A stretch of 64,000 bases of DNA, from the NCBI RefSeq assembly GCF_002736205.1, contig NZ_CP024091.1:4771555-4835554 (forward strand), in the 5' to 3' direction. The DNA comes from Pedobacter ginsengisoli (GTDB lineage Bacteria; Bacteroidota; Bacteroidia; Sphingobacteriales; Sphingobacteriaceae). The notes under the pieces are model-generated. The model saw nothing but the letters and a program-made list of their open reading frames with translations, searched no databases and was not told where the DNA came from. The position numbers were made by a program, and so were the translations under genes. Below are positions 6,818 through 10,127 of this stretch, in pieces (positions within the stretch are counted from its first letter, which is position 1; each line of letters opens with the position of its first letter).

Positions 6818-7783
6818 TTATGCCTCATTTTTAAGTGTTTTCAATACACTAAGCACCCAACCCTTACCCCATTCGTCCATTTGTTCTTCAGTCCACAGAA
6901 AGGGATAGAAAATTCTTTTCTGAAAGCGTGGAGGTAAATACTTCTGCCAGTTCGTGCCGCCGGTAGCCGCAATATCAACCGGATCTCTTTCCAGATATCT
7001 TACCGCCGATTTATAATGAGACAAAGGCCACTCCACATTAACATATAAATCGAGTTTTCTAAGTTCATCTGCCAAGGCAGAAACATCGTGTCCCTGCTCT
7101 AATAATTTATGATACAAAGCAGAAAAATTACTTTCCTTTCTATCTTTTACCAACTGTAAAAACTGAGTGGCATACTTCTGTATAAACTGTTTTAAAGTAA
7201 GGGTTTGTTTACCACTTGCCAGTTCTGTAGCTCCGAATTTCCAATAAATAAATTCAAATTGTTCTTCAACACTTTTATCTGCAAGTTCTTCTCTTTTGCT
7301 TTTATCAACCAGCCTGATAAAATCTGTTGCACAAATCTCTATCATTCGGTATTGGCCCGATTGGAAGCCACTTGCAGGTAATAATGACATTCTGAATTTC
7401 AGAAATTGATCTTTATCCATCCCGTTCACCATCACTTCAAATGAGGTAGTTAACGCATTAAAATAAGAATTAATGCGTTTTACCCTTTCAGTAAAGAACT
7501 GAACAGTTAATTTTTCATTATTGGCAATCTGTTTACATTCATGAAGTGTAAGTTTAAAATATAACTCAGTAATCTGATGGTACATGATAAAAATCTCTTC
7601 ATCAGGAAAAGGGGTTTTTGGATTTTGCAGGCTCAGTAAAGTATCCAGGTGGATATAATCCCAGTAAGTTAAGAAATCAGCATACAACAAACCATCCAGA
7701 TATGCCGACATATCCTGGCCCATTGCTGCATATTTCTCCTGCAGTTTATCCAGCTTTTCCTTTATCTGAGGTGTAAGTTCCAT
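6818..7783 (-). CDS. kynA: Tryptophan 2,3-dioxygenase
   Basis: The 321-residue protein is mostly helical. The motif FIMYHQITELYFKLTLHE includes the distal His and substrate-contact region of heme-dependent tryptophan 2,3-dioxygenases, and YADFLTYWDYIHLDTLLSLQ is the N-terminal family signature. It oxidises L-Trp to N-formylkynurenine, the first step of the kynurenine pathway. The gene starts one base after the stop of the phosphatase-ACT gene, so the two are almost certainly cotranscribed. No other kynurenine-pathway gene is in the window. Confidence 0.9.
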   Translation of the reverse strand: MELTPQIKEKLDKLQEKYAAMGQDMSAYLDGLLYADFLTYWDYIHLDTLLSLQNPKTPFPDEEIFIMYHQITELYFKLTLHECKQIANNEKLTVQFFTERVKRINSYFNALTTSFEVMVNGMDKDQFLKFRMSLLPASGFQSGQYRMIEICATDFIRLVDKSKREELADKSVEEQFEFIYWKFGATELASGKQTLTLKQFIQKYATQFLQLVKDRKESNFSALYHKLLEQGHDVSALADELRKLDLYVNVEWPLSHYKSAVRYLERDPVDIAATGGTNWQKYLPPRFQKRIFYPFLWTEEQMDEWGKGWVLSVLKTLKNEA

Positions 7784-7784
7784 C

Positions 7785-9083
7785 CTAATATAAAACCCTG
7801 AATTTTATAGTATGTTCAATCTTTTTTAATGATTTAAACAATTGCTTGTCATACTGAGCATTAATGTCTGTAATCACATAGCCAATTTCAGCATTAGTCA
7901 TCAGGAACTGACCTACAATGTTAATGTCATGTTTGGCAAAAACAGTATTAATTTTGGCCATAATACCCGGTACGTTTTTATGAATGTGTATTAGTCTGTG
8001 CGATTTCTCGATTCTTGGCAATTGCAGGTTCGGGAAATTGCTGCTCAGATAACTGGTGCCTGTGTTCATAAAATCTATCATCCTTTTTGGAATGAAATCG
8101 ATATTACGAGGATTATGTTTAGGATCATCAAAAACTACAATACCCTGTTCAGTACAGGTAGAAATGTCAACCTTATTTTTTGCGCTGCCCAGGTAACCAA
8201 TGGTTTTAAGCTTAACGGCTCTTTTTAATTTTTCAAGATCAATTTTTTCGCCATCGGCCAATAACATCATGTGTACATCAGGTACATACTTCTCTTCAAA
8301 AGTAGTTTTATGACGAACAGAAAAGCCATCTTTTTTAAGCAGCTCAATAGTTAATGGGTCTGCATCACCAATAATCAGGCACAGGATCCTGTTTTTAGGA
8401 TATGAAATTGCCCGTGGTAAATTGTTGACATATAAGAACTCATCAAAACTTGGGGTAATATGGTCGGCCTTTTTAACAATGCTTTCTCTCGAAATGTTCT
8501 CAGTAAACGCATAAAACTTCTTTATCAAACCACTTTCGCGAAGCTGAAAATCCGAATAGCCATCACCAATACCGTAAAGATCTCCCTCAAGGTTTAGCTG
8601 TTGCATTAGTTTAACCTTACCACCTTCTTCACTTAATGGGTTAGAGTGGTCGTAATCAATTATTTTTCCATCACCTGTAGTTACAAAAGTATTAGCGTAG
8701 ATGTTTTCTTTTTTAATGTGGAACTTACTTACTACCGGGGTAATGAATTCTTTAAAACCACCAGAAACGATCAAAACCTCATCAGCATGTTTTTTAAAGA
8801 ACTCGGCATTGCGCGAAAAAGAGGCAGAAACCTTTTTCTTTAAATGCGTAATTAGTTGTTTCAGGTGATCTTCATTAGCCTCAAGAAGTTTAACCCTTTG
8901 AGCCAAGCTCTCGCCAAATGAAAGTTTTCCTTCCATTGCAAGGTTGGTGTAGTCTTCAATCTTCTGAAAAATAGCATCTTTCTCTGGATGCTTTTTTAAA
9001 GAGATACGGGCTAGCTCATCTAATGCCTCAACCTGTGTAAAGGTGCTGTCAAAATCAATAATGTAAATATTTTTTTGCTTCAT
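7785..9083 (-). CDS. SerB-like HAD phosphatase fused to a core-deleted phosphoglycerate dehydrogenase relic with ACT domain
   Basis: There are three parts in 432 residues. Residues 1-215 are a HAD-IB phosphatase with DFDST (10-14), VSGG (106-109) and GIGDGYSD (171-178), as in phosphoserine phosphatases. Residues about 222-325 resemble the N-terminal lobe of SerA, including IGYLGSAKNKVDISTCTEQG and GIVVFDDP. Residues 330-432 match the SerA hinge and ACT domain (SYLSSNFPNLQLP, IHIHKNVPGIMAKIN, final KFRVLY). The NAD-binding domain of roughly 200 residues that should lie between them is absent, with the frame kept. Longer SerB-SerA fusions of about 630 residues are known in Bacteroidota, to my recollection. 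Phosphatase activity is likely and dehydrogenase activity impossible; serine or another amino acid may regulate it through the ACT domain. The gene lies between the epimerase and kynA genes, 1-2 bp from each. Confidence 0.8.
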   Translation of the reverse strand: MKQKNIYIIDFDSTFTQVEALDELARISLKKHPEKDAIFQKIEDYTNLAMEGKLSFGESLAQRVKLLEANEDHLKQLITHLKKKVSASFSRNAEFFKKHADEVLIVSGGFKEFITPVVSKFHIKKENIYANTFVTTGDGKIIDYDHSNPLSEEGGKVKLMQQLNLEGDLYGIGDGYSDFQLRESGLIKKFYAFTENISRESIVKKADHITPSFDEFLYVNNLPRAISYPKNRILCLIIGDADPLTIELLKKDGFSVRHKTTFEEKYVPDVHMMLLADGEKIDLEKLKRAVKLKTIGYLGSAKNKVDISTCTEQGIVVFDDPKHNPRNIDFIPKRMIDFMNTGTSYLSSNFPNLQLPRIEKSHRLIHIHKNVPGIMAKINTVFAKHDINIVGQFLMTNAEIGYVITDINAQYDKQLFKSLKKIEHTIKFRVLY

Positions 9084-9084
9084 T

Positions 9085-10052
9085 TTAGTTGTTCTTTAAC
9101 CCCCTGCAAACTTCTTCAATACTTTGCTTAAGCGGTTTAAATTGTATTCCGATTGTATGCTTTATTTTTTCGTTACTATATAAGCTTTCATTTAAGCTGC
9201 TTCTTGCCGCATCGCTTGTTAATGCTGCAGGTTTGCCGGTAAACAGAGATGCCAGCTTTGCTGCCCTCCATGCAATGCCAAGCATCCATGGCTTTGCTTC
9301 TTTTGAAGGTGCCTTTACATTAAAGCCCTGAGCAATTTCTCCAAAAAACTGTTGATAATGATAGTTCTCAGAAGATATGGTGTAGCGTTCGCCGGTTTCT
9401 TTACTGTTCATTAATGAAATCATGCTTTTTGCCACATCATGAACATCCACAATACCTGTTGCACCTTTGGTGTAATAAGAAAGGCCATCTTTTACCAGTT
9501 TAAATATTGCACCGCTGCCTTCAAAACCAGCCCCGGCCCAATAATTACAGATGGATTTACAATTACCGCATCTAAGCCTTCAGCAATTCCACGCCAAACC
9601 TCCATCTCGCCTTCATATTTAGAGATGGCGTATGAATGCGCTTTTGGATCATATTCCCAGAAATCCTTTTCGGTAATCAGTTGTCCTTTTTTTGCATTCC
9701 CTAAGGCTGCAACAGAACTTACATGAACCAGCCGTATATTATTTTCTGCACAAAGGTTAACAATGTTGCTGGTGCCCTCAATATTAACTTTAAGCAATTT
9801 TGCCTTATCCTTCGGGTCAAACGATATCATTGCCGCGCAGTGGTAAACCTGATCAACACCTTCAAAGGCATCCTCAAGCGAAGAAATGTCATTTATGTCC
9901 GCAACAAGCCACTCAATATTTGCGTTGTTGCTTATTGATTTGGGTATAACAGAGTGCTCGCGTTTTAATGCTTTTACCTTTACACCCGCCTCAGTTAATT
10001 GATTTATTAATTCTGCTCCTAAAAATCCAGTGGCGCCGGTAACTAATATCAT
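9085..10052 (-). pseudogene. NAD-dependent epimerase/dehydratase (extended SDR), one-base frameshift
   Basis: The N-terminal part starts at ATG 10052 and has the Rossmann motif ILVTGATGFLGAELI, the SDR Ser region VHVSSVAALG and the catalytic YAISK. The frame is then lost after VNPSVIIGPG. Restoring one base in the C-run at 9531-9534 (a G-run of the coding strand, 4 where 5 is needed) continues the protein as GAGFEGSGAIFKLVKDG and on into VDVHDVAKSM. The restored length is about 322 residues, normal for the family. The substrate is unknown; such proteins act on sugar nucleotides, flavonoid-like carbonyls or terpenoid alcohols. It is either a genuine frameshift mutation or a sequencing error. 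First gene of the kynA operon. Confidence 0.8.
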
Positions 10053-10088
10053 TTCATTTTTTTTAGGATGTTCATTAAAATATGCTCT

Positions 10089-10096
10089 CAAAAATA
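10089..10096 (-). promoter_or_regulatory. -7 promoter element for the epimerase/phosphatase-ACT/kynA operon
   Basis: The minus strand reads TATTTTTG, an exact TAnnTTTG match 36 bp before the epimerase ATG. Genes downstream have 1-2 bp gaps and no further promoter was seen, so this probably drives all three. Confidence 0.5.
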
Positions 10097-10127
10097 GATA
10101 TTTGATGGCATACATTTATAGTACTAT

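Follow-up and report, generated by a model that had tools for sequence, protein, structure and literature searches.

A 432-aa protein that joins a SerB-like HAD phosphatase to a PGDH without its core is encoded in the window, the 64,000-nucleotide stretch of Pedobacter ginsengisoli DNA analysed here. Judging from sequence comparisons, we consider it fairly probable that this protein is the SerB of the serine pathway, that it derives from a fusion, and that L-serine controls it by feedback through a salvaged PGDH ACT domain. In Pedobacter and in nearly all sampled members of its family, control by serine would then probably fall on the final step of serine synthesis and no longer on the initial one. 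The gene, its segments and its neighbours are as follows.

7785..9083, minus strand: SerB-like HAD phosphatase with core-deleted PGDH and ACT domain, 432 aa (P0001)
8439..9083, minus strand: residues 1-215, HAD-IB phosphoserine-phosphatase-like domain with D10, D12, E19, R63, S107, K156, D174 and D178 invariant
8388..8438, minus strand: residues 216-232, linker FLYVNNLPRAISYPKNR, the slowest evolving of five segments compared in the window's family, f1
8100..8387, minus strand: residues 233-328, front (N-terminal) section of the PGDH substrate-binding domain, which lacks the Arg60-equivalent site and evolves at roughly double the rate of HAD or ACT
8099..8100, minus strand: junction at residues 328/329, where ~193 residues of the intact fusion are absent, the whole NAD-binding domain among them
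8004..8099, minus strand: residues 329-360, rear (C-terminal) section of the PGDH substrate-binding domain, with the hinge
7788..8003, minus strand: residues 361-432, ACT domain with serine ligands H368, N370 and N388
9085..10115, minus strand: SDR/epimerase gene, conserved upstream neighbour, broken by a frameshift in the present assembly; outside the mechanism
6818..7783, minus strand: tryptophan 2,3-dioxygenase gene (kynA), loosely linked downstream neighbour; outside the mechanism

A sequence-only reading had described the open reading frame at 7785-9083 as a phosphatase fused to a PGDH that lost exactly its NAD-binding core, tightly spaced between kynA and an SDR gene. Its coordinates and its 432-aa product were borne out, and 1 bp separates it from each neighbouring ORF. 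Using Pfam, we found HAD at residues 9-181, the 2-Hacid_dh catalytic domain at 236-326 (profile positions 2-96 of 134) and ACT at 364-427; the NAD-binding domain PF02826 was absent from the protein in this search. Comparison with structures by phmmer leads to the same result. Residues 4-112 of PDB entry 2p9c, which we take to be the PGDH of E. coli, align to residues 226-328 (i-Evalue 0.033, weak alone) and residues 309-410 align to 332-432 (i-Evalue 4e-17), so ~196 PGDH residues are missing. In an intact fusion (L142 of genome G193, 634 aa), the stretch without a counterpart is residues 338-530 and PF02826 spans 343-519; the deletion thus takes out the NAD domain together with flanks of 5 residues in front and 11 behind. 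Since PF00389 spans 239-551 in the same fusion and surrounds PF02826, the NAD-binding domain sits inserted in the PGDH substrate-binding domain, and its removal rejoins two halves of one substrate-binding domain. The in-frame jump over this domain also stood; the second of the two anchors proposed for it was slightly off, with the actual junction lying a little earlier, at about 328/329, where NPRN is followed directly by IDFIPKR.

Assigning this protein from its best-matching parts would be misleading, as the tail reads SerA and the head reads SerB. The position equivalent to Arg60 of E. coli PGDH is replaced and those of Lys141, Arg240, Glu269 (presumably the catalytic Glu of E. coli PGDH) and His292 are deleted. 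Together with the absence of the NAD domain, these losses mean that, as judged from its residues, the protein cannot be a dehydrogenase. The roles of Arg60, Arg240 and His292 in the E. coli enzyme are given in parts of PMC6300728. This is a warning for annotation, since the dehydrogenase function that the tail suggests is impossible.

The core-deleted form is a real gene and is widely shared. It is present in one copy in the source genome, and we found it end to end in 36 of 36 genus genomes searched (the source genome included), the other 35 at 81-97% identity. Among sampled genomes of the order, 200 of 201, all in the one family f1 and spread over 15 genera, contain it as a single match; full-length fusions, in searches of this kind, give a pair of matches. 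Open frames at the best 150 places among these order-level matches are 430-530 residues long. Named carriers, among the best 80 of 143 confirmed loci, are mostly Pedobacter, with Nubsella and Daejeonella, and we therefore take f1 to be Sphingobacteriaceae. The sole exception of the 201 is G411, a 99% complete genome of the window's genus in which no copy was found (best E 0.026), reflecting either a real loss or an assembly gap. It had been considered that raw reads might expose a collapsed deletion of a full-length fusion, so that the 432-aa form would be an artefact of assembly or annotation. Only a frameshift in the neighbouring SDR gene of the same assembly speaks for such an artefact, and the recurrence of the deleted form across the genus, the order and the best 80 of the 143 named loci leaves it barely conceivable, and we rejected it. 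One of the loci, L069 (JASCOD010000001.1), comes from a record titled Flavobacteriaceae bacterium PS02338, yet its gene is of the Pedobacter type (86% identity) and its neighbours are the same; the organism label is probably wrong.

The two neighbouring genes differ in how closely they follow the phosphatase gene. Of the best 80 of the 143 named loci, 77 have the SDR gene immediately upstream and in the same orientation, 2 more have it 1 kb off, and in 1 it is missing from the stretch. The kynA gene is downstream on the same strand within 150 bp in only 30 of these 80, at 151-700 bp in 16 and farther in 22, with an opposite-strand ORF (≥150 residues) intervening in 19 of the 22; in 12 it was not found in the stretch, some stretches ending at contig edges. 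Seven f1 loci outside the window's genus, with flanks of ~1.5 kb, have the SDR gene in three cases and kynA in none, and no relatives of either gene (E 1e-10) were found beside the fusions of other families, where flanks are mostly 1.5-2 kb. A functional partnership of the phosphatase with kynA, and with it a tryptophan/kynurenine tie, is rejected by this variable adjacency and by the finding of neither an SDR nor a kynA relative in the short flanks of other-family fusions. The kynA neighbour looks like incidental local synteny.

Two local features of these neighbourhoods were also observed. The SDR/epimerase gene (HpnA-like) of the window is split into ORFs of 207 and 121 aa, with one base missing relative to Pedobacter panaciterrae L031, while it is a single ORF of 320-364 aa in 79 of the best 80 of the 143 named loci; the split is either a strain pseudogene or a single-base assembly error. 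In Daejeonella oryzae a CrcB-family (PF02537) gene (L106:5295-5669) lies directly after the phosphatase gene and before kynA.

Full-length SerB-SerA fusions occur in other families of the class. Our class-wide search matched 81 of 295 genomes, which we sorted by hand into 10 with the deleted form in f1, 3 with a deleted form in another family (f14), 43 with full-length fusions, 4 unfused and 21 with the ACT tail only. One of the f14 trio has an apparent frameshift and one is split over contigs. In the 4 unfused genomes, serB and serA lie close together on one strand. These four loci (L185-L188, from G091, G276, G249 and G324) have serB and an ACT-type serA and belong to genus g55 of f12; within that family, genus g12 carries the fusion, and the unfused arrangement of g55 is either the ancestral state or a fission. 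We aligned 52 proteins, comprising 41 full-length fusions (G216 and G314, whose fusions are apparently split over contigs, were left out), all 10 proteins from f1 and the f14 protein of G048. Defined by an arginine at each of the Arg60 and Arg240 sites, GxGxxG, Glu269 and His292, the dehydrogenase signature is intact in 36 of the 41 and lost in 5. The catalytic motifs are gone in three f11 proteins and in G077 (f42); in G059 (f25) the two substrate arginines are missing, with Glu and His kept. The f11 fusions (L190 and L137 of G275, L177 of G160 and L175 of G221) are 598-616 aa long and have all lost the catalytic motifs; that of G275 still matches the NAD-binding family by sequence. By their motifs, the f11 proteins are pseudo-dehydrogenases inside a serine-synthesis fusion.

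Descent of the 432-aa protein from a bifunctional SerB-SerA fusion, as the sequence-only reading had suggested, is supported by these comparisons: domain order is shared, the alignment resumes at the junction without extra residues, and deleted forms fall beside full-length ones in trees. Other families whose fusions are intact, intermediates in which the dehydrogenase is mutated, and the tree all point to this origin. In an open-access literature search, with most subscription journals outside its scope, we found no paper describing Bacteroidetes SerB-SerA fusions or the core-deleted form.

We built unrooted trees from the HAD and ACT columns (326 columns, PGDH part excluded). Family f1 groups with f11 at support 94/92, and at 97/93 in a second tree from which the long rows G120 and G277 were dropped and to which two f14 fragments were added. 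The f14 deletion is placed apart from f1, with mostly intact fusions around it. A constraint uniting all deleted rows was rejected in both trees (AU p 0.0115 in the first and 0.023 in the second), and the f14 cut is ~7 residues larger than the f1 cut. These results make at least two separate deletions of the core probable. The rejection of a single origin is of moderate strength; long-branch effects are possible, as the f14 and f42 branches are long, and the evidence is good, not final. Since f11, the sister family of f1, has a decayed but undeleted dehydrogenase, the f1 line fits mutation first and excision later. The decays in f25 and f42 look like further, separate ones.

A second SerA, without an ACT domain, accompanies the loss. 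The sequence-only reading had proposed looking for a complete serA elsewhere in the genome, and one is present: directly beside serC lies a gene for a separate SerA of 317 residues, which has catalytic and NAD-binding domains and in which Pfam finds no ACT. It adjoins serC in 10 of 10 f1 genomes examined, and was not beside serC in f14 (G048, G129) or f42 (G077). Relatives of this SerA (E up to 1e-60) are found in each of the 18 genomes examined whose fusion is decayed or deleted (G092 has a partial frame only). Where the fusion is intact, 15 of 29 genomes have one, 6 of them matching at no more than 41-47% identity, and where serB and serA are unfused, none of 4 does. The survey covered 29 of the 36 intact fusions, with G089, G155, G159, G186, G190, G220 and G299 outside it. 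The association between a separate SerA and loss in the fusion has a Fisher p of 0.00025 by genome and is not significant by family (5/5 vs 6/10, p 0.23). This is the pattern expected if a second SerA permits decay, and is not independent proof of it. When the source genome was searched with the PGDH model PRK11790, only the 432-aa protein matched its ACT end, and we regard the ACT domain of this protein as the candidate serine sensor for this reason. Were the source genome typical of its family, the pathway there would have no other PGDH-type serine sensor.

Apart from the serC gene next to serA, the source genome has two further strong SerC-family aminotransferase matches (G000:C1:77589-78644 and 3316323-3317372). 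A TIGR01364-type SerC at E 1e-80 was not found in 11 of 28 genomes searched (G036, G049, G093, G130, G153, G162, G193, G223, G250, G302 and G325), all of which have an intact fusion and no separate SerA; the phosphoserine aminotransferase of these genomes must be another or a diverged one.

The phosphatase domain is conserved at the residues expected of its class, and the HAD-IB motifs that had been called intact are so throughout. No variation was seen at D10, D12, T14, E19, R63, S107-G109, K156, G173-G175, D174 or D178 among 45 aligned core-deleted proteins (44 of the best-80 named loci plus the window protein); these positions include the HAD motifs DxDxT (with the nucleophile), SGG, Lys and GDGxxD. 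In the alignment of 52 fusions, D10, D12, T14, R63, S107, K156, D174 and D178 are kept in every member and E19 in 51, with Asp in the intact fusion G120. The HAD catalytic residues, as well as E19 and R63, align with their equivalents in human PSP, where the latter two correspond to E29 and R65, which we take to hold the serine part of the substrate. Best relatives of the front half among known structures are phosphoserine phosphatases or phosphatase-like (phmmer vs PDB). The score against the SerB model TIGR00338 is 66 bits for the protein and 70 in the genome search, below the cut-off of 144, so the substrate identity is not certified by this model; the HAD-IB subfamily model TIGR01488 gives 60 bits, above its cut-off of 45. 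In the source genome the 432-aa protein is the only strong match to TIGR00338. The remaining matches are partial at E 7e-6 or worse, the next-best in an 840-aa frame and most in frames of 673-856 residues (maybe P-type ATPases, at a guess). Because this search found no other convincing SerB-family protein in the genome, the best reading of these sequences is that the 432-aa protein is the pathway's phosphoserine phosphatase.

The ACT domain retains the equivalents of known serine ligands. Parts of PMC6300728 describe His344, Asn346 and Asn364 as the L-serine ligands in E. coli PGDH. Their equivalents, H368, N370 and N388, are invariant in 45 of 45 core-deleted proteins, and the His/Asn/Asn set is unchanged in all 52 aligned fusions, 16 of which have a dehydrogenase that is decayed or deleted. 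By contrast the PGDH remnant has changed rapidly. Its mean amino-acid divergence relative to ACT is 1.95 in the deleted f1 and 2.09 in the decayed f11, compared with 0.66-1.35 in eight intact families with ≥2 members (f2, f4, f10, f12, f15, f49, f54 and f68, three with only two). The ratio of ACT to HAD divergence is 1.15 in f1 and 1.20 in f11, against 0.30-1.02 in the same eight families; a slightly faster ACT would fit either a partial loss of its role or a more constrained HAD. For 26 Pedobacter and Nubsella genes, non-synonymous difference is 0.191 in the remnant, 0.128 in the hinge, 0.075 in ACT, 0.065 in HAD and 0.020 in the linker, values used only relative to one another as synonymous sites are saturated. 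By these measures selection is relaxed mainly on the dehydrogenase part. The earlier suggestion of an ACT-regulated phosphatase gains from both observations, the kept serine ligands and a remnant that evolves far faster than ACT.

We propose that the 432-aa protein would perform the last step of Pedobacter serine synthesis as its phosphoserine phosphatase. The ACT-less SerA beside serC would have made the fused dehydrogenase redundant, its active site would have decayed first, and a clean excision of the NAD-binding domain, inserted in the discontinuous substrate-binding domain, would have come later. The PGDH ACT domain would have been kept for binding L-serine and making a dimer. Serine at the ACT-ACT interface may then move ACT and the remnant as a lever and lower phosphatase activity, so that end-product control would act on the last step where it once acted on the first. 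When E. coli PGDH binds serine, its substrate-binding and ACT domains turn as one unit relative to the nucleotide-binding domain (as described in parts of PMC6300728). In the 432-aa protein this unit is joined to HAD by a highly conserved linker, and a serine-driven motion could thus act on the phosphatase. We infer the order of events, the phosphatase activity, serine binding, ACT dimerisation and inhibition from these comparisons.

Several other explanations share part of this evidence. The protein could be a SerB in which the remnant and ACT are a mere scaffold for dimerisation or stability and serine regulates nothing. The rapid evolution of the substrate-binding remnant and the raised ACT/HAD ratios in f1 and f11 both favour a scaffold, as does the dimer geometry of E. 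coli PGDH, for which parts of PMC6300728 describe two interfaces; the one at the nucleotide-binding domains has gone with the core and the one at ACT would remain. However, it is the serine-binding side chains and not just the fold that are unchanged in all 52 fusions, including the 16 decayed or deleted ones, and we regard an unregulated scaffold as unlikely. The remnant could also serve, besides a SerB role, as a regulatory subunit in trans that docks on the ACT-less SerA and confers serine sensitivity on it. Such a partner lacking ACT by Pfam is present wherever a decayed or deleted fusion was examined (18 of 18 genomes, G092 having only the partial frame), and part of the PGDH substrate-binding domain is retained. 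Docking is nonetheless quite improbable given that the PGDH interface at the nucleotide-binding domains is deleted, that serA is ~2.4 Mb away, and that the remnant evolves fast, unlike a partner-binding surface.

We give similarly little weight to a shift of the HAD domain to another phosphomonoester, such as histidinol phosphate or a kynurenine-pathway compound, which would make the link to serine a historical one. Some genes first annotated as phosphoserine phosphatases have been proposed as histidinol-phosphate phosphatases (in parts of PMC5764234), kynA adjoins the gene in the window, and the score is under the SerB cut-off. Against this, E19 and R63 are invariant in the 45 core-deleted proteins and align with identical residues of human PSP, the TIGR00338 search offers no other convincing SerB-family candidate in the genome, and the linkage to kynA is loose. 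In addition, Table 1 of PMC7311316 places Pedobacter sp. GW460-11-11-14-LB5 among 35 bacteria making all amino acids, and the one gap listed there for this strain is in lysine, not serine. Our preferred reading remains a pathway SerB controlled by serine through the salvaged ACT domain.

A broader version of the serine-controlled SerB model has, we estimate, slightly less than an even chance of being correct: that at least two lineages independently moved serine feedback from the first enzyme to the last, with the ACT sensor and an emptied substrate-binding lever controlling the phosphatase, and with f11, f25 and f42 caught midway, decayed and undeleted. The fusion is found in four states, namely with both enzymes intact, with the dehydrogenase mutated, and with the core deleted in two different ways, and the regulatory residues are constant through all four. 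It therefore offers a natural experiment in the re-wiring of allosteric control, with the clear prediction that serine would inhibit the phosphatase through the PGDH ACT domain.

Compared with known systems, the 432-aa protein resembles the full-length Bacteroidia fusions of HAD and type II PGDH in the order of its domains, in sequence (39-50% identity from the start to residue about 260-340 and 44-66% over ACT), and in its HAD motifs and ACT serine ligands, which are the same; it differs in lacking the whole NAD-binding domain that they keep. E. coli SerA, a type II PGDH (1psd, 1yba), aligns with it over ACT and both NAD-domain flanks and has the counterparts of its three serine ligands (His344, Asn346 and Asn364), whereas the NAD domain and the dehydrogenase active-site residues of SerA are absent. 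Human PSP and the PSP-like 3kd3 (presumably from Francisella) are stand-alone HAD phosphatases that share the HAD core and catalytic residues, but these chains of ~220 residues have no ACT and no PGDH part. In M. tuberculosis SerB2 (ACT-ACT-PSP), the ACT domains are N-terminal. SerB2 is likewise a phosphoserine phosphatase with ACT domains, and parts of PMC10564941 report its inhibition by L-serine from experiment and describe an arrangement of ACT1, ACT2 and PSP domain with serine contacts at E33, R103 and T136. The 432-aa protein instead has one PGDH-derived ACT domain, C-terminal and behind a PGDH remnant, and we infer that the two architectures are convergent.
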